Positions 3,010 to 56,012 of a DNA stretch of 64,000 bases are shown piece by piece. Below the pieces are notes generated by a model. It did not search any database. It was not told the origin of the DNA and saw nothing but the letters and a program-made list of their open reading frames with translations. Location of the stretch: contig JADFLR010000010.1 in NCBI GenBank assembly GCA_022564295.1, positions 1-64,000 on the forward strand. The letters run 5' to 3'. The number at the start of each line of letters is the position of its first letter. Position 1 is the stretch's first letter. Both the position numbers and the translations under genes were made by a program. The stretch comes from Bacteroidota bacterium. Its GTDB lineage: Bacteria; Bacteroidota; Ignavibacteria; Ignavibacteriales; Ignavibacteriaceae.

Positions 3010-4047
3010 TTAATAGGAAACTGCCTGTTTGTCTAAAGTTAAAACAGCCTCCGTAAGGTTTTCAATTGAGAGACTGATGTAGTGCTTCTCTGTAATGTAG
3101 ATTGAAGAATGTCCCAGTAGTTTTGAAATTGTGCTTATGGGAATTCCTTTCTGTAACAGATGGCTCCCAAATGAAACTCTTAAAAGGTGGAAATGGTATT
3201 TTTCATTCAATCCTAATTTCCTAACTATTCTTTTGAATCTCTTACTCACATATTCATTAGAATAAGGAACACCCGGATATTTAGAAAATAAATAGTCATC
3301 TAACTTTATATCTATTATTTTGGGTAACCTATTCTGTAATAATTGAAATAATGTATTGTTCAGAGGGATGATACTTGGCTTTTTGTTTTTGGTTCTGAAT
3401 GAATCATAATTTTGAACTAAAAGAGTCCTGCCCCTTAGATTTACAGATGACCATTTTAGATTAATTAATTCCGATAATCTTAAACCTGAGTTCATTGCTG
3501 TTAAAAAGATGTCTTTCAAGTTCCTGCATTCAGTGTTAGTAACTATTAACTTGAATTCACTTTCATCAATGAACAGAGGAGTTGACTCAGCAATTTTAGG
3601 AAGCTTTTTTCTGTTAAAAGGATTATCAGTTAAGTAGCCCCAATTCACAGCTTTGTTGAATGCACTTTTTAATGCTCTGTAATTAGTCCAGGCACCGTGT
3701 TGAGTTCGCTTAAAGGTTATGTTCATAAATTGGTCAAGCTGATGATAGGTTAATTTGGATAATGCAATATCACCTGTAAATTGACTGAGCTGTCTAAAAG
3801 AAAGCGAAACGGTTTTAAGATACTTCTTAGAACAATTTGCAGCTAAATAGTCTTGGTATCGTTTAGCATAGGTAGATAAGAGTATGTGGTGTGGCTTATG
3901 ATTGTCCTGAATCCTCTTTTGGAAATCTGTCAGGAATTTAATTGCTTGAGCCTTTTTTGTGGATTTTGCAGAAACTCTTTTTACCCGATTTTCAATATCA
4001 TCAAAATATTCTAAATGATAATATTTACCTCGTTTGAAAAGAAACAT
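3010..4047 (-). CDS. Tyrosine recombinase / phage-type integrase
   Basis: The 345-residue protein has an N-terminal arm-binding-like region (1-55), a SAM-like core-binding domain (about 57-145) and a catalytic domain. The catalytic set is visible: R190 in GLRLSEL, K in the beta hairpin near 220-223, H287 and R290 in HLLR, H313 in LLGH and nucleophile Y323. It should therefore be active in site-specific strand exchange. AGGAG lies a few bases before its ATG. The gene reads away from a tRNA-Thr copy 84 bp upstream, the usual arrangement for an element that integrates at a tRNA gene. It lacks obvious features of IntI-type integron integrases. It may belong to an integrated island whose other end lies left of the window. 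Confidence 0.9.
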   Translation of the reverse strand: MFLFKRGKYYHLEYFDDIENRVKRVSAKSTKKAQAIKFLTDFQKRIQDNHKPHHILLSTYAKRYQDYLAANCSKKYLKTVSLSFRQLSQFTGDIALSKLTYHQLDQFMNITFKRTQHGAWTNYRALKSAFNKAVNWGYLTDNPFNRKKLPKIAESTPLFIDESEFKLIVTNTECRNLKDIFLTAMNSGLRLSELINLKWSSVNLRGRTLLVQNYDSFRTKNKKPSIIPLNNTLFQLLQNRLPKIIDIKLDDYLFSKYPGVPYSNEYVSKRFKRIVRKLGLNEKYHFHLLRVSFGSHLLQKGIPISTISKLLGHSSIYITEKHYISLSIENLTEAVLTLDKQAVSY

Positions 4048-4091
4048 ATTAGCACTCCTTTCATCTTAAAAGAGTGTTAAGCAGGGGTTTC

Positions 4092-4112
4092 CACTGAACA
4101 ATTTACTGAACA
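4092..4112. repeat. Two ACTGAACA direct repeats beside the integrase
   Basis: ACTGAACA occurs at 4092-4099 and 4105-4112, a 13-bp spacing, between the integrase start and the tRNA copy. This is where arm-type integrase sites or excisionase sites would be expected. The role is inference only. Confidence 0.35.
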
Positions 4113-21904: not shown

Positions 21905-22067
21905 TCACCTAACTGAAGTTAGGTGTTAATGGTATTTTAACACTTTGCTTTAATTAACTCAGCCTACTAACACCTGACTTTAGTCAGGTGCAAGAAAACA
22001 GATACCATCTTCCTTAACACCCGACTTTAGTCGGGTTAAGAAAGTAACCACAGATAGAGAAAACGGT
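21905..22067. repeat. Left 163-bp direct repeat with three palindromes
   Basis: The block contains three hairpins in order: CACCTAACTGAAGTTAGGTG, CACCTGACTTTAGTCAGGTG and CCCGACTTTAGTCGGG. An almost identical block of the same length and order lies at 22615-22777, on the other side of the transposase gene. The palindromes resemble the REP sequences that accompany REP-associated tyrosine transposases. Confidence 0.85.
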
Positions 22068-22079
22068 TTCAACCGTTTT
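22060..22079. repeat. Hairpin at the 3' end of the transposase gene
   Basis: AAAACGGTT (22060-22068) and AACCGTTTT (22071-22079) form a perfect nine-base stem with a two-base loop. The stop codon of the transposase lies inside it. A related hairpin, AACCGTT/AACGGTT, lies at 22563-22578 upstream of the gene. Confidence 0.7.
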
Positions 22080-22515
22080 TAACATACTTTATTCCGTATT
22101 TTTTCATAAACAACTCATACTCTTCCGTGAAACTCTTCGCCCTGTGATGCTCTTCCTGATTATTTATATAATCAACAACTTTTTTCAATTGTGATTCTGA
22201 AACCGAAAACGCACCATAACCTCTTGCCCATCTGAACTTATTATTAACTAATCGGTTATCATTAATATAATGAGAAGAACTTCCTTTCAGCAATTTTAAA
22301 CATTCATCAATTGATAGAGTTGTAGGCAAATCAATTAAAGCGTGGACGTGTTCTGCATTAACATAATTGGTTCTCATATAAATTTCTTTCTCTTCAGCAT
22401 AACTATAAAGAAACTTAGAGACTTGTTTTCGTACATCCTTTAACAATACTTTCTCTTTGTTGTGTGTTGACCAGATGAGATGTAACCAAACTTTAGAATA
22501 TGAATGTAACGACAT
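22069..22515 (-). CDS. REP-associated / IS200-like Y1 transposase
   Basis: This 148-residue single-strand transposase has the HUH motif H56-V-H58 in EHVHALIDLP and the likely nucleophile Y116 in VVDYINNQEEHH. A family-typical RWARGYGAFSVS segment lies near 95-106. All key residues are present, so it may be active. Such enzymes cut and join single-stranded DNA at hairpins. It is flanked by matching palindrome-rich direct repeats, and its stop codon is embedded in a hairpin. There is no partner TnpB. Confidence 0.9.
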   Translation of the reverse strand: MSLHSYSKVWLHLIWSTHNKEKVLLKDVRKQVSKFLYSYAEEKEIYMRTNYVNAEHVHALIDLPTTLSIDECLKLLKGSSSHYINDNRLVNNKFRWARGYGAFSVSESQLKKVVDYINNQEEHHRAKSFTEEYELFMKKYGIKYVKNG

Positions 22516-22614
22516 TGTAATAACCTTTTTTTATTCTTTTACATAAACTAATGATTATTTGTAAACCGTTAAAACGGTTGTCAGGTTGGAGGTGTTGAGT
22601 GTCGTTGTTTCTTC

Positions 22615-22777
22615 TCACCTAACTGAAGTTAGGTGTTAATGTATTTTAACATTTTACTTTAATTAAGCCAGCTAACTAACACCTGACTTTAGTCAGGTGC
22701 AAGAAAACAGGTGCCTCCTTCCCTAACACCCGACTTCAGTCGGGTGAAGAAAGTAACCACAAGATAGAGAAAGCGGT
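22615..22777. repeat. Right 163-bp direct repeat with three palindromes
   Basis: This copy has the same three palindromes in the same order as 21905-22067, in the same orientation. A further degenerate palindrome, CACCCAACTGAGTTAGGTG, follows at 22811-22829. The match between the copies suggests a fairly recent duplication. Confidence 0.85.
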
Positions 22778-34327: not shown

Positions 34328-37276
34328 TCACGCGAGGTAGAAATCAAGATTTACTTCTTTATTTCTCCTTCCACAATCTTGATTTCCTTCTCCGTTAAAC
34401 CGTAAAGCCTGCCTATGCCGAAGCGGCTTCGCGCAGGCAGGCTGGTAAACGAGCTGGTCTATTTCTTTATCAATTCTTTCGCATTTGCGCTCTAAGTAGT
34501 TTTTGTCTCCTTCTGTTTTGGCTTGCTGGAGTTGCTTTTTTGCAGTGAGAATTTGATCGACCAATAGCATAAGTTTATCTGAGTTTTTTTTATTTTTTAC
34601 TTTAGCGATTGGTAATTGTGCAATATGTCCTCTTTTAACCTGTGCTAATGCTTCTCCTTTTTCGGGATTAATGACATTTTGATAATACCAAGTTAATAAT
34701 TTGGAATTTATAATAGCTAAAATGAATTTAAGATTGGTATCTATATCACGTGGCACAATAGTATACAAGTTATCTCTCACAATATATTTATCAGTATCCA
34801 ATGTAGCAATAAGCGAATCCCCAGTTTGACGTATAACAATTTTTGAATTTGCATCATAGTTTGCGGAATATCTAGGCTCAGCTAGCCAATCACCAAAACT
34901 TATCCAATAATCCTTATTCCAAAGAATTGCAAAACGATTTATTAGACGTCCCCTTAATAGTTTTTTAAAAGTTGAATTGATTCTCTTTTTGGAAACATAT
35001 GGCTTATCTTCAACTACTTTCCTTGTTTGTGGAGGTTTGCCTTTTCCTACTTGAAAAGGTTTGCACCCTTGAGTTATAACAACAATATCATCCAATAGTG
35101 TATTATTTTTAATTTTTAATGTGAGGGGAATAATTTCATCTCTTTCATAAATATTTACTGAGTTACCTTCAGATTGAATAAACCTTTGTTGTGATATATA
35201 ATATGATTTTTCTAATTTATCTTTCTCTATTAGTTTAACTTTAATTTTAGATCTAACGGATGGTTTAATTTTATTTAGTATAATTGTCTCAGTATCAACA
35301 GTAGCTTGGTTAAAAACATAGAATTTATAATGTACTATTTGGTCAATTACATAATTTTTGAAAATATACTTCCTAAAATCTTTAGAGAATAAGTTTAACA
35401 ACCATGTATTCGGAATTATATATCCCAACAATCCTTTTTGTTTTAAGATAATCAAAGCCTTTTCAATAAAGATTGAATAGGAATCAAACTGATAACTCTG
35501 AATGTGATATTTGTTCTTAAAATAATGTAAAGAATTGTTTGCAAAAGTTGCACCATACGGTGGATTCCCTACAATCGCATCAAAGCCGCCTTTGTTCATT
35601 ACTTCAGTGAAGACATTCTCAAAATCCATTGGTTTAATTTTCAGTTCATCGAACCCTCCCTCAGTCCCTCCCTTTGGCAAAGGGAGGGAAGTCTGATGAT
35701 CAAGAATATCAGTTCCAATTAATGAGTTGCCGCATATAATGTTTTTATTTAAATCGGGTAAAAGCTGTTCTTTAAATAATACCCACGTATCATTTGCAGT
35801 TGCCGTGGTTTCATCTTCAAGCAATTTTAAATAAAGAGAAAGCTGTGTTACTTCAACCGCTTGCTGGTCAATGTCAACTCCGTAAATATTATTAATAAGT
35901 ATTTTCTGTTTCTGTTTAAGAGAGAGACGGTAAACCCCTTCATATAAAATGCAGCCGTCTTTTTTTGCCTGCTCTGTGTGCTGCTGGTACCAAAGTTTAT
36001 GGTAATCGAGAAGAGTTTCAAAAACAGTTATAAGAAAGGAACCGCTTCCGCAGGCAATGTCTGCAAACCGCATCTTTGCAATCTGCCTCGGTGTTTTGCC
36101 CGTAATAAGTTTTCCAACTGTGTTTTCTACAATGTAATTAACAATATACTGCGGCGTGTAATAAACTCCGCCTGCTTTTCTTACTTCAGGTTTTTCTTCA
36201 ATGGTTGCTCGCTTATATGTGGCGTGTACAACCTTTCCGAGAAATCTTTCGTAAATAGAACCAAGAATATGAATTGGAATTGCGTCAAAATTATAAGGAG
36301 TATTTTCGTGGGAAAGTTCTTCACAAATTGCAGAAAAAGTTTTATCATCGGGTTCGACTATGTTAGGGGAATCAATAAGATGTTTTTTAAATACAACTCC
36401 GTTGTATTTTGCATCGAGCTTACGCGAATCTCTAAGAAAATCTTCCCAGGCACTTTTTCTTTTGCCAAAATTACTTACATAATGATCTGGTTCAATCAGC
36501 TTATCTTCCAAAAACTTTATAAATACAAGCCTGTCTATTGTCCTTTGCGTTGCTTCGGTAAGCTCTTCGCTTGAAAGATGTTCATTATTCTTCTTAAAAG
36601 ATTTTGCAAGTGCAGTTCTTATCTCATCTAACTCTTCAAGAAATGCCTCATCGATAGATTGAAATGCCGTTTTAGTTATTTTTGCTTTTTTGCCCTTTGG
36701 TTTAGGAAGTGCATCAGCATACTTACCGATAGAATTATTTGCAATTGCTTCATGTGAAAAGAGCCAATAGATTTCTGAAAATTTATCTTCGTTGAGGTAA
36801 TCAGTATAATGGAATTGTTTAATCTTATAATTAATTGCATCGTTAATTGCCGGTTTGAACCTGCAATCAACAATATGGAATTCTTCGAAGTCTGTAAGCA
36901 CTGCTATCGGAGTTCCGGCATTCCATCCATAACGTGCTGTCTGGAAGTAGTAGTCTTTGTTTTCTAAATCGTGTGCGGGTTTTTTAGCTTCAACAAAAAA
37001 CTTTACCGTTCTAAAATCAGGCGCTAATGAGAATGAATAATCAGCTCTTTTTTGTGCTTTTGCAAAGTGTAAAGGCTTTTCAACCTTTACTTCCTGTTCA
37101 TAAGGATTTTTCTGTTCTTCATGCCTTACATCCCAGCCAAGAGCAATAAAGAGCTTATTTATAAAATCATTCCTTACATCTGCTTCAGAATAACTTTGGT
37201 TTAAAAAATAGTTTTCGTTTTCCTTGAAATCTTGCACAAGGTCTGAAACTCTCTTAAAAGCATTTTCGAAAAACAT
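34328..37276 (-). CDS. Type IIG restriction-modification enzyme (Eco57I-like)
   Basis: This 982-residue protein combines nuclease and DNA methyltransferase. The N-terminal PD-(D/E)xK part has D79 and E96-A-K98 (FFVEAKKP). The amino-methyltransferase has motif I in FADIACGSGSFLI (near residue 405) and motif IV NPPY in AIVGNPPYGATF (near 572). A C-terminal specificity region follows (TaqI-like). It is probably a single-chain restriction enzyme; no partner gene is nearby. Two palindromes interrupt it: an in-frame insert (SLPLPKGGTEGGF, near residue 533) and a 3' insert (34407-34442) that shifts the frame. The original end LYGLTEKEIKIVEGEIKK and its TAA (34351-34353) are still readable in another frame. 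Activity is uncertain. Confidence 0.9.
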   Translation of the reverse strand: MFFENAFKRVSDLVQDFKENENYFLNQSYSEADVRNDFINKLFIALGWDVRHEEQKNPYEQEVKVEKPLHFAKAQKRADYSFSLAPDFRTVKFFVEAKKPAHDLENKDYYFQTARYGWNAGTPIAVLTDFEEFHIVDCRFKPAINDAINYKIKQFHYTDYLNEDKFSEIYWLFSHEAIANNSIGKYADALPKPKGKKAKITKTAFQSIDEAFLEELDEIRTALAKSFKKNNEHLSSEELTEATQRTIDRLVFIKFLEDKLIEPDHYVSNFGKRKSAWEDFLRDSRKLDAKYNGVVFKKHLIDSPNIVEPDDKTFSAICEELSHENTPYNFDAIPIHILGSIYERFLGKVVHATYKRATIEEKPEVRKAGGVYYTPQYIVNYIVENTVGKLITGKTPRQIAKMRFADIACGSGSFLITVFETLLDYHKLWYQQHTEQAKKDGCILYEGVYRLSLKQKQKILINNIYGVDIDQQAVEVTQLSLYLKLLEDETTATANDTWVLFKEQLLPDLNKNIICGNSLIGTDILDHQTSLPLPKGGTEGGFDELKIKPMDFENVFTEVMNKGGFDAIVGNPPYGATFANNSLHYFKNKYHIQSYQFDSYSIFIEKALIILKQKGLLGYIIPNTWLLNLFSKDFRKYIFKNYVIDQIVHYKFYVFNQATVDTETIILNKIKPSVRSKIKVKLIEKDKLEKSYYISQQRFIQSEGNSVNIYERDEIIPLTLKIKNNTLLDDIVVITQGCKPFQVGKGKPPQTRKVVEDKPYVSKKRINSTFKKLLRGRLINRFAILWNKDYWISFGDWLAEPRYSANYDANSKIVIRQTGDSLIATLDTDKYIVRDNLYTIVPRDIDTNLKFILAIINSKLLTWYYQNVINPEKGEALAQVKRGHIAQLPIAKVKNKKNSDKLMLLVDQILTAKKQLQQAKTEGDKNYLERKCERIDKEIDQLVYQPACAKPLRHRQALRFNGEGNQDCGRRNKEVNLDFYLA
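34407..34442. repeat. Palindromic insertion at the 3' end of the restriction gene
   Basis: The outer arms GCCTGCCT and AGGCAGGC enclose a second small stem CGAAGC/GCTTCG. Together with one extra base they separate LVY from LYG of the ancestral enzyme and shift the frame. The arms match the palindrome at 25597-25615. Confidence 0.8.
35664..35688. repeat. In-frame palindromic insertion inside the restriction gene
   Basis: TCCCTCCCTTTG and its complement CAAAGGGAGGGA form an almost continuous 25-base palindrome. Read on the minus strand, the surrounding DNA encodes SLPLPKGGTEGGF, a low-complexity segment between DHQT and DELKIKP of the enzyme. Length is compatible with the frame, so the protein may tolerate it. 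Confidence 0.75.
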
Positions 37277-37484: not shown

Positions 37485-38504
37485 ATGATAACATCAAAAA
37501 AATTTAGTTTAGTGGAAGTCCTTAAATGGACCAAAGTTGAAATCATCATATTTATATTCATTGCAGCTATTCCAACGATTCTCTATGATGTGTTAGGTTA
37601 TAAGTGGCTTGCCATTCCCTGGCTGCCGGTTGCTTTGGTTGGTACTGCAGTTGCATTTTTAATTGGATTTAGAAACAACGCATCTTACGACAGACTTTGG
37701 GAAGCACGGAAAATCTGGGGTGCTATTGTTAATTCGAGCAGAACCTGGGGTATTGTGGTAAAAGATTTTATAACAAATAAGCACCCTGAGATTGAACTCT
37801 CCGAAGAAGAATTAACTAAAATTCACACCAATTTTATTTACAGACATATAGGATGGCTTGCTGCACTAAGATATCAAATGGGAAAGAGTAAAGCCTGGGA
37901 AAATTCGCAGGCATCACTCTCTGAAGAATATAAAAAAGTATTTAAAATGTTTAAGGGTGAAAATGATTTGGAAACTGAATTAGACAAATATTTTTCTGAA
38001 TCGGAAAAAGAACATCTATCTCCCAAAAAAAATAAAGCGACACAAATAATTAGTATTCAATCATCAGAATTAAAAAAAATATGGGAAATAGGACTCATCG
38101 ATAATTTTCGTCATTTGAAATTGCAAGGAATGCTTGAATAATTCTACGATCAGCAAGGTCAGTGTGAGCGCATTAAGACTTTTCCGTATCCCAGACAATT
38201 CGCAACTGTTAATCTTTTTTTCGAATGGATTTTTATTTTATTAGTACCTTTTGGTATGCTTCCGGGGTTTGAGAAATTAGGTAGTCGATTAATCTGGCTT
38301 ACAATTCCATTTTGTGTCCTTGTGTCATGGGTATTTCATACAATCGAAAAAGTTGGAGAGTCCAATGAAAATCCTTTTGAAGGTGGCGTTAACGATATAC
38401 CTTTGGCAGCAATTAGCAGAACCATAGAAATAGACTTAAAAGATATGCTGGATGAAAATGATTTACCAGAACCTATTCAACCAATCAACAATATTTTAAT
38501 GTAA
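37485..38504 (+). pseudogene. Bestrophin-like channel gene interrupted by in-frame TAA
   Basis: Bestrophins are anion channels; homologues conduct chloride or bicarbonate. ATG 37485 encodes 218 residues with the family features LVGTAVAFLIGFRNNASYDRLWEARKIWG and RHIGWLAALRYQMG, then stops at TAA 38139-38141. The same frame continues at once as FYDQQGQCERIKTFPYPRQF, then membrane helices and DIPLAAISRTIEIDLKDML, to TAA 38502-38504. These are conserved bestrophin parts, so the real gene is about 340 codons and the stop splits it. A sequencing error, a recent mutation or low-level readthrough are the options. A carbonic anhydrase gene follows 14 bp later. Confidence 0.75.
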
Positions 38505-53629: not shown

Positions 53630-54763
53630 ATGAAGAAACTATCTACCATTATTGTGCTTACTACAACATTACTATTAATGGGTAATGTTTTCGCACAATC
53701 CAGATATGTTGCAGAAGATGCATGGGGTTTTGGTTTTGGTTTTACATATCCAAGATACATATCTATCAATAATGCCGTCGTGCAAAGCTCAAGTTTCTAT
53801 GGTGGACATCTCTCCATCCAAAGAAATTTTTCAGAGCACATTGGTATTAGACTAAAAGCCGCCTACAACCATGTTGAAGCTACCTATCAGGTTGCCCCAA
53901 AGGTGGGTGAGTTTGTTACCAATGATATGATAACCGGTGATGTAGATCTTCTATACTACTTTGTACCATGTGAACCATGGTCACCTTATTTGGTTATTGG
54001 TAGTGGTGTTAATTATCACGAACCTGAAAATGCCTTAAGCCCTTTAATTGCAGACGAAGGAACTAATCTTGTTGCACAACTTAACGTGGGTGCTGGAATG
54101 GAAATTACAATTGGATACGATTGGAGAGTTAAACTCGAGGTTGTTTATCACTCAATGTGGAATAGTAAAATTGATGGGAACTTTGGGTCCAGTAACGGAT
54201 TATTTGGCGGAACAGCAAACGACACCTGGGTTAATGCTGATGTTGGTATTCTCTATTACTTCAGCAAAGGTGAACCATCAAAAATTTGTCAGCTATACAC
54301 TGGTATAGCAGAAGTTGATTATGATAAAATTGAAGATATCGTAAGAAGATATCAAACAGATCCAACAGAAATAGATTACAACAGAATTGAAGACATAGTC
54401 AAAAGATATTCTCAAAGACCTGTAAAGGATAAATGGACACTTGTTGGTGTTAATTTTGATTTTAACAAAGCTACACTCAGACCTGAAGCTTTCCCGATCT
54501 TGAGCAATGCAGCCGAAATACTGTTAACTTATACAGATGTAAGTGTTGATATCGTTGGTCATACAGATCAGGTCGGTTCTGATAGATACAACGATAAAAT
54601 TTCACTTCAGAGAGCTGAATCTGTTAAGAAATATCTTATTGCCAAAGGAGTTGATGCAAACAGGTTAAATACTGTTGGTAAAGGCAAGAGAGAGTTACTC
54701 TTTAATGAAAACGATCCAACAAGCAGATTTTATAACAGAAGGATTGAGTTTAGAGTTAAATAA
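53630..54763 (+). CDS. OmpA-family outer-membrane protein 1
   Basis: OmpA proteins anchor the outer membrane to peptidoglycan. The 377-residue protein has a signal peptide (GNVFAQ), an N-terminal barrel (about 25-215), a linker with a repeated unit (DYDKIEDIVRRY, DYNRIEDIVKRY) and a C-terminal peptidoglycan-binding domain (VNFDFNKATL, GHTDQVGS with its conserved aspartate, and LQRAESVKKYL with its conserved arginine). It is highly similar to the next gene, and the C-terminal 150 residues are almost the same. It was probably duplicated. Confidence 0.93.
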   Translation: MKKLSTIIVLTTTLLLMGNVFAQSRYVAEDAWGFGFGFTYPRYISINNAVVQSSSFYGGHLSIQRNFSEHIGIRLKAAYNHVEATYQVAPKVGEFVTNDMITGDVDLLYYFVPCEPWSPYLVIGSGVNYHEPENALSPLIADEGTNLVAQLNVGAGMEITIGYDWRVKLEVVYHSMWNSKIDGNFGSSNGLFGGTANDTWVNADVGILYYFSKGEPSKICQLYTGIAEVDYDKIEDIVRRYQTDPTEIDYNRIEDIVKRYSQRPVKDKWTLVGVNFDFNKATLRPEAFPILSNAAEILLTYTDVSVDIVGHTDQVGSDRYNDKISLQRAESVKKYLIAKGVDANRLNTVGKGKRELLFNENDPTSRFYNRRIEFRVK

Positions 54764-54789
54764 AATATTTAATAAATTGAATAATCAAC

Positions 54790-54820
54790 GAGGACCCCTG
54801 AAATATGGGATCCTCAATAA
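54790..54820 (+). terminator. Weak hairpin after the first OmpA-type gene
   Basis: GAGGA...TCCTC (54790-54794 and 54811-54815) with inner CCC/GGG forms a short stem with a bulge. It is followed by AATAAAAA rather than a clean T run, so it is a weak terminator. Confidence 0.4.
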
Positions 54821-54881
54821 AAATATGATGGATCATTATGTACTTTTTATTTTATATTGATCATTGCATAAAGGCAGGTCT

Positions 54882-56012
54882 ATGAAAAAATTATTTACAA
54901 TATTAACTGTTTTCTCAGCACTCATTTTGATGACTAATACATTTGCCCAATCAAGGTATCTTGCCACAGATTCCTGGGCATTCGGGTTTGGGTTCACTTA
55001 TCCGAGATACATTTCAATAAACGATGCTGTTGTACAAAGCTCAGATTTCTATGGCGGACATCTTACAATTCAAAAAAATGTTTCAGAACATGTTGGAGTT
55101 AGATTTAGAACCTCTTACAACCATGTGGTGGCTACTTATCAGGTTGCCCCAAAGAGGGGAGAGGATGTTAGTAATAATATGATTACTGCTGAGTTTGGTT
55201 TTTTATTCTACTTCGCTCCTTGTGAACCTTGGTCTCCATATGTATTAGCCGGTTCTGGTATAAATTACTATAAACCGGAAAATACGTTAGCTACCTATTT
55301 GGATAATGAGTATACTTTAGACGGACAATTCATCGTAGGTGCAGGTTCTGAAATTAGGGTTGGAGAAAATTGGCGGGTAAAACTTGAAGTTGATTATAAT
55401 ATGGTTTGGAGCAGTAATATTGATGGTAATCCCGGCCCGAGCAATGGGCTAATTGGTGGAACTGCAAACGATACGTGGGTTAATGCTGATGTTGGATTAA
55501 TTTATTATTTCAGCAAAGGCGAACCTTCAAAAATATGTCAGCTTTATACCGGTATTGCAGAAGTTGATTATAATCAAGTTGAAGATATTGTTAGAAGATA
55601 TCAAACAGAACCAACCGAAATTGATTACAACAGAATTGAAGATATAGTCAAAAGATATTCACAAAGACCTGTTGAGGACAATTGGACACTTCTTGGTGTT
55701 AATTTTGATTTCAATAAAGCTACACTAAGACCGGAAGCTTATCCAATACTCGACAATGCTGCCGAAATTCTTTTAACTTATCCTCAGGTAAATGCAGATA
55801 TTATTGGTCATACAGATCAAGTAGGATCTGATAAAATCAACGATAAACTTTCACTCCAGAGAGCTGAATCTGTTAAGAAATATCTTATTGCCAAAGGAAT
55901 TGATGCAAGCAGGTTAACTACTGTTGGTAAAGGTACGAGAGAACTGCTCTTTAAGGAAAACGATCCTACAAGCAGATTCTATAACAGAAGAATTGAGTTT
56001 AGAGTTAAATAA
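54882..56012 (+). CDS. OmpA-family outer-membrane protein 2 (tandem paralogue)
   Basis: The 376-residue protein is the tandem copy of the previous gene. I chose ATG 54882; AAAGGCAGG precedes it, and the TTG at 54864 is in frame but weaker. The signal peptide (TNTFAQ), the barrel, the repeated linker (DYNQVEDIVRRY, DYNRIEDIVKRY) and the OmpA C-terminal domain are all present. It differs mainly in the barrel loops. The gene ends in a clean terminator. Confidence 0.93.
   Translation: MKKLFTILTVFSALILMTNTFAQSRYLATDSWAFGFGFTYPRYISINDAVVQSSDFYGGHLTIQKNVSEHVGVRFRTSYNHVVATYQVAPKRGEDVSNNMITAEFGFLFYFAPCEPWSPYVLAGSGINYYKPENTLATYLDNEYTLDGQFIVGAGSEIRVGENWRVKLEVDYNMVWSSNIDGNPGPSNGLIGGTANDTWVNADVGLIYYFSKGEPSKICQLYTGIAEVDYNQVEDIVRRYQTEPTEIDYNRIEDIVKRYSQRPVEDNWTLLGVNFDFNKATLRPEAYPILDNAAEILLTYPQVNADIIGHTDQVGSDKINDKLSLQRAESVKKYLIAKGIDASRLTTVGKGTRELLFKENDPTSRFYNRRIEFRVK

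Follow-up and report, generated by a model that had tools for sequence, protein, structure and literature searches.

A 34-bp palindrome interrupts the 3' end of a predicted Type IIG restriction-modification gene in the window (the whole stretch of 64,000 nucleotides that was analysed, from an Ignavibacteriaceae genome, G000), and the conserved C-terminus has been shifted out of frame. Taken as a whole, the best explanation is that a REP-like, non-autonomous palindrome inserted at a preferred site in the 3' module of the gene, and we consider this probable. Sequence comparisons show directly that DNA was inserted and the frame shifted, that an empty site exists, and that related palindromes have used the site repeatedly. 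The features of the locus, all on the minus strand, are the following.

34328..37276, minus strand: Type IIG restriction-modification ORF with a shifted C-terminus, 982 aa, from PADLOC and Pfam
34328..34441, minus strand: new C-terminus read through the insert, QPACAKPLRHRQALRFNGEGNQDCGRRNKEVNLDFYLA; its Q derives from the original CAG
34351..34407, minus strand: relict of the ancestral last 18 codons, LYGLTEKEIKIVEGEIKK, plus TAA (34351-34353), now out of frame; from homologues
34408..34441, minus strand: REP-like palindromic insert CCTGCCTGCGCGAAGCCGCTTCGGCATAGGCAGG, 34 bp, missing at the orthologous position of all intact relatives
34442..34561, minus strand: upstream part of a ~170-bp recombining 3' module; nucleotide identity falls sharply beyond
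35652..35692 (outer limits approximate), minus strand: second palindromic insert, in frame, in the loop GTDIL^DELKIKPMDF; arms 35665-35676 and 35678-35689

The ORF matched REase_MTase_IIG in PADLOC (E 3e-161). Its Pfam domains were Eco57I, N6_Mtase and TaqI_C, with a weak HSDR_N match below the Pfam cut-off. With nuclease-like, N6-methyltransferase and recognition domains in a single protein (Pfam, PADLOC), it is, as judged from its domains, a Type IIG restriction-modification enzyme. About 945-953 codons are open 5' of the insert, and the protein as it stands ends in IDQLVY-QPACAKPLRHRQALRFNGEGNQDCGRRNKEVNLDFYLA, with the stop ending at 34328. Automated annotation would call the gene intact, although its conserved end has been replaced. 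In a synteny check, the neighbouring gene (37485-38138) was absent in five other genomes of the genus, so there was no orthologous locus to compare. The sequence of the TaqI_C recognition domain (QGCKPFQVGKGKPPQTRKVV..) was nearly identical in Pyrinomonadaceae, Planctomycetes and Microcoleus contigs (L002, L003, L004), which suggests wide transfer of one specificity.

The original prediction had described a 36-base palindrome, an old frame still readable to the TAA at 34351-34353 and an ORF end at 34328, all of which is accurate. The ancestral end that it proposed was recovered by homologue alignment. About 20 homologues, from this family and other families of the phylum, plus Acidobacteria and Planctomycetes contigs, terminate in LVY-x-LYGLTEEEIKIVE or very close to it, giving the family pattern LVY-x-LYGLT..EEIKIVE. 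The LYGLTEEEI end is conserved even across distant enzymes. In tblastn searches, the matches of relatives repeatedly ended at residue 945, the start of the insert. G348, a member of another genus in this family, has the closest tail, which is uninterrupted and reads GTTTACCAG-CTTTACGG, with the empty-site junction CCAG^CTTTACGG; it is 91% identical to the window over 96 flanking bases. This empty site bears out the claim that a palindromic insertion moved the ancestral C-terminus out of frame. Homologues with the present C-terminus and no repeat were looked for and not found. Because 34 is not a multiple of 3, the last 18 residues, with the conserved LYGLTEEEIKIVE end, gave way to 37 unrelated residues. 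A low-confidence structure model of the relative L002 (mean pLDDT 38.9, too weak to judge the tail) suggests that a helical hairpin is followed by a short terminal helix and that this helix is what was lost, in which case a conserved terminal helix would have been replaced through the palindrome insertion. Given the conservation of the lost end, the enzyme may be impaired or altered, and loss of function of the present allele is plausible.

Together with the flanking G and C, the palindrome spans 36 bp (34407-34442), and its CCTGCC..GGCAGG core spans 34 bp (34408-34441). As part of the target, the outer G and C do not count towards the insert, so the net insertion is 34 bp, not 36. The placement of the boundary carries a 2-bp ambiguity (GC), and no target duplication beyond these two bases was seen; the flanks are CCAG and CTTTAC. 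This short, imperfect palindrome can form a hairpin, with a fold energy of -24.4 kcal/mol where shuffled sequences average -14.5 (z -4.0; none of 200 shuffles as good). The pattern GCCTGCC N4-24 GGCAGGC occurred once in the 4.07-Mb genome, and the reversed control pattern not at all. A chance palindrome was rejected on the fold compared with shuffles and on this single occurrence against none in the control. An intrinsic terminator was rejected as no T run follows the hairpin; the sole terminator-like match (34439-34460, plus strand) is a separate, weaker stem. An Rfam search gave no match to a known structured RNA. A hairpin in the empty target was also rejected as an attractant, the intact site folding no better than shuffles.

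In G000 the palindrome is single-copy, which rejects a high-copy repeat in its own genome. Across the 395 sampled genomes of the phylum it was found in eight, allowing up to 3 mismatches to its consensus. All 34 core bases were matched by four copies in G351, a fifth copy there matching 32/34, and 31/34 were matched in G356, G049, G255 and G323. Both G351 and G049 held several copies. These matches make it a dispersed repeat in other Bacteroidota. The "mobile palindromic repeat" of the original prediction needs qualifying: it is dispersed in other genomes but single-copy in the host genome, so mobility is deduced from the relatives. Copies outside the gene tails were often nested in other hairpin repeats, such as ATCGCGGG^CATTTGACCCGCGAT in G049. 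Their flanks did not share a CAG^CTTT motif, so a simple short motif does not account for the site preference.

Ten tails from five genomes were interrupted at the same nucleotide: one in G000, three in G356, one in G355, three in G348 and two in G354. The preferred insertion point is (C/G)AG^CTTTAYGG in the conserved 3' module, and all ten inserts were of the CCTGCC..GGCAGG type. Each of the three palindrome copies in G356 lies in the tail of the same gene family, and the inserts in G355, G348 and G354 are others, with ends of the same kind. Two tails had a further insert at the first ACCAG^CTT that they contain. When 391 genomes of the class were screened for the right-hand junction, it turned up only in this family (G000, G348, G354). 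Reuse of a landing point to the nucleotide, in a defence gene and in several genera, is unusual. Both this recurrent insertion point and the second palindrome in the gene go beyond the original prediction.

At least three of the insertion events at this site are independent, as the window, G356 and G355 show. The window tail is nearest to intact G348 tails (0.91), and its second-best match is also intact (0.89), while its identity to the interrupted tails, including those of G356, is below 0.77. The window palindrome matches that of G356 at 31/34 bases, and its nearest relatives are the dispersed G351 copies. The three G356 inserts are identical to each other, in flanks that are only 0.68-0.76 identical in the pairs listed (24-32% differing). 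The interrupted G355 tail is 0.90 identical to an intact tail upstream on the same contig, and carries a different insert. The inserts found in G348, G354 and G355 have common ends, TTTACCTGCCG..AAGGCAGG; apart from one match of different appearance in G232, they turned up in the family only at these tails, and a single older event may thus be their common origin. Orphan tails could also multiply with the insert inside, so that events within one genome may not all be independent.

Comparison with relatives delimited the 3' module. Identity between the window gene and G348 gene 1 was 0.83-0.97 within ~120 nt of the site and 0.23-0.50 beyond. For the G348, G290, G349, G263 and G144 genes it was 0.67-0.97 over ~120 nt upstream and then at most 0.50, the fall at the edge of the module taking place over ~30 nt. 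In the G355 and G356 genes identity dropped too, but was more variable inside the module. A ~170-bp 3' module has probably been exchanged between enzymes with different upstream halves. Orphan copies of it were scattered among toxin-antitoxin-like and other genes in G348, G144, G355, G354 and G356, with neighbour names assigned by eye from translations. Orphan last ~40-60 codons of Type IIG genes were seen among toxin-antitoxin-like, HEPN-like and other small genes (L137 6398-9030, L138 5459-6680, L140 ~3990-4100, L139 2350-3050, L073, L074). The orphan copies look like joints of a defence island.

Since the module recombines, with its sharp edge, the insert might have been brought in by homologous recombination, as a tail already carrying the palindrome, either from an orphan tail or from an incoming restriction-modification gene. 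Interrupted orphan tails are indeed present in four related genomes. Against this, no palindrome-bearing tail is close to that of the window, the best matches being intact, and G000 has no other tail copy. We therefore regard this route as unlikely. An assembly or sequencing artefact is the least probable explanation of all; the genome is a draft of 59 contigs, but the same element occupies the same position in independent genomes.

The consequences for the protein are a separate matter. Of the ten interrupted tails, only that of the window lies in a full-length gene; the other nine are orphans, preceded by 10-40 open codons. Intact tails were in ORFs of more than 150 codons in 11/13 cases and orphan in 2/13 (Fisher p 0.0006 for the difference, indicative only, as the copies are related). 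This suggests that an insert at the tail site is usually not kept in a working gene, and the window case is therefore probably recent or tolerated. The original prediction had proposed that loss of function may be selected in a defence gene; the nine other interrupted tails in orphan fragments fit an insert that is harmful in a live gene, rather than selected. A tolerated or even useful new C-terminus, with a peptide derived from the palindrome as in Rickettsia palindromic elements and a working enzyme, is compatible with insertion and differs on the outcome. It would agree with the open remainder of the ORF, and with the in-frame palindromic loop insert that the same gene, like most relatives, carries. 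The excess of orphans among interrupted tails and the conservation of the LYGLTEEEI end speak against it, and we hold it to be rather doubtful, though somewhat less so than recombination. Ribosome bypass or frameshifting at the hairpin could let part of the messages yield the ancestral end; the 34 nt leave a +1 shift, and AGG C AGG CTT stands at the right edge. However, this is not an established slippery motif, the other inserts at the site vary in length and sit in non-coding fragments, and such recoding appears very improbable.

The loop palindrome in the window gene reads TTCCCTCCC..GGGAGGGA. The same loop repeat with changed cores was found in G290 and G355, and other palindromes at this loop in G144, G263, G349, G332 and G313; the two G348 genes had no palindromic insert there. 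In every sequence found the loop palindromes were in frame, in a search that required an unbroken frame and that out-of-frame cases would escape.

In the favoured insertion model, a CCTGCC..GGCAGG-type palindrome dispersed across Bacteroidota would have entered (C/G)AG^CTTTAYGG with a net gain of 34 bp. The mover would be a transposase of the Y1/HuH (RAYT/IS200-like) kind, working on single-stranded DNA folded into a hairpin, and the event would be recent, since the other 945 codons of the ORF are open. Y1/HuH transposases were present in 7/7 genomes searched, with 4-13 matches each and four in G000. In genus g155, short CCTGCC..GGCAGG hairpins flank some of the Y1 genes; for two tails, one orphan and one in a gene, a hairpin-flanked Y1 transposase stands no more than ~0.6 kb away. 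None of the Y1/RAYT genes examined was flanked by the window 34-mer. No Y1 gene adjoins the palindrome; that of the window is 12 kb away and has different hairpins. RAYT-like mobilisation is the leading candidate on the present genomic comparisons. That the 3' module is a dedicated landing site, with insertion and precise Y1 excision as an off/on switch and scattered copies as arms through which recognition domains are exchanged and defence genes joined, seems to us improbable.

Several repeats were observed in passing. The window Y1 transposase gene (22156-22500, minus strand) lies between two identical 27-bp hairpins, TCACCTAACTGAAGTTAGGTGTTAATG (21905, 22615), each followed by a 121-nt direct repeat that is 89% identical (region 21905-22761). 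At L155, L164 and L169, short CCTGCC..GGCAGG palindromes beside Y1 genes split other hairpins, as in AACC^TCTACGAGGTT and AAACC^GTTGAAACGGTTT. At window positions 53664-55658, stretches that are 73-77% identical are duplicated in tandem at a spacing of 1249-1252 bp and have a short repeat within them.

The gene resembles Type IIG enzymes with exchangeable recognition domains in its domain order (HSDR_N-like, N6-MTase, TaqI_C) and in a C-terminal half that varies between conserved parts. Unlike in those enzymes, the last ~170 bp are also scattered between other genes as orphan DNA copies. Rickettsia palindromic elements likewise lie within protein-coding genes, and the loop insert (35652-35692) is in frame as they are, whereas the 34-bp tail insert is out of frame; the likeness considered here is one of insertion type. 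Two REP superfamilies, GTAG and CGTC, are described with RAYT/TnpA-REP transposases (PMC3733652; TnpA-Y1 phylogeny in PMC6006769), and a Bacteroidetes subclass with atypical hairpins has been reported (PMC3733652; PMC6006769). REPs nested inside other hairpin repeats are on record (PMC3733652), as are REP hairpins within ORFs, in one instance at nearly the same position of two Xanthomonas recB genes (PMC3733652; PMC6006769). Our palindromes share with REPs that they are gene-less hairpins of 20-65 nt, dispersed and sometimes nested in palindromes or inside ORFs, in genomes that also encode Y1 transposases. They differ in that the foot of the window hairpin, between CCAG and CTTTAC, has no GTAG or CGTC tag, in that G000 has a single copy instead of many, and in that insertion recurs at a single position, to the nucleotide, within a restriction-modification gene module. 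That palindromes insert into genes was already known (PMC3733652); the repeated landing site is the new point, and as a defined target it allows tests of how Bacteroidota palindromes move and where they choose to insert.
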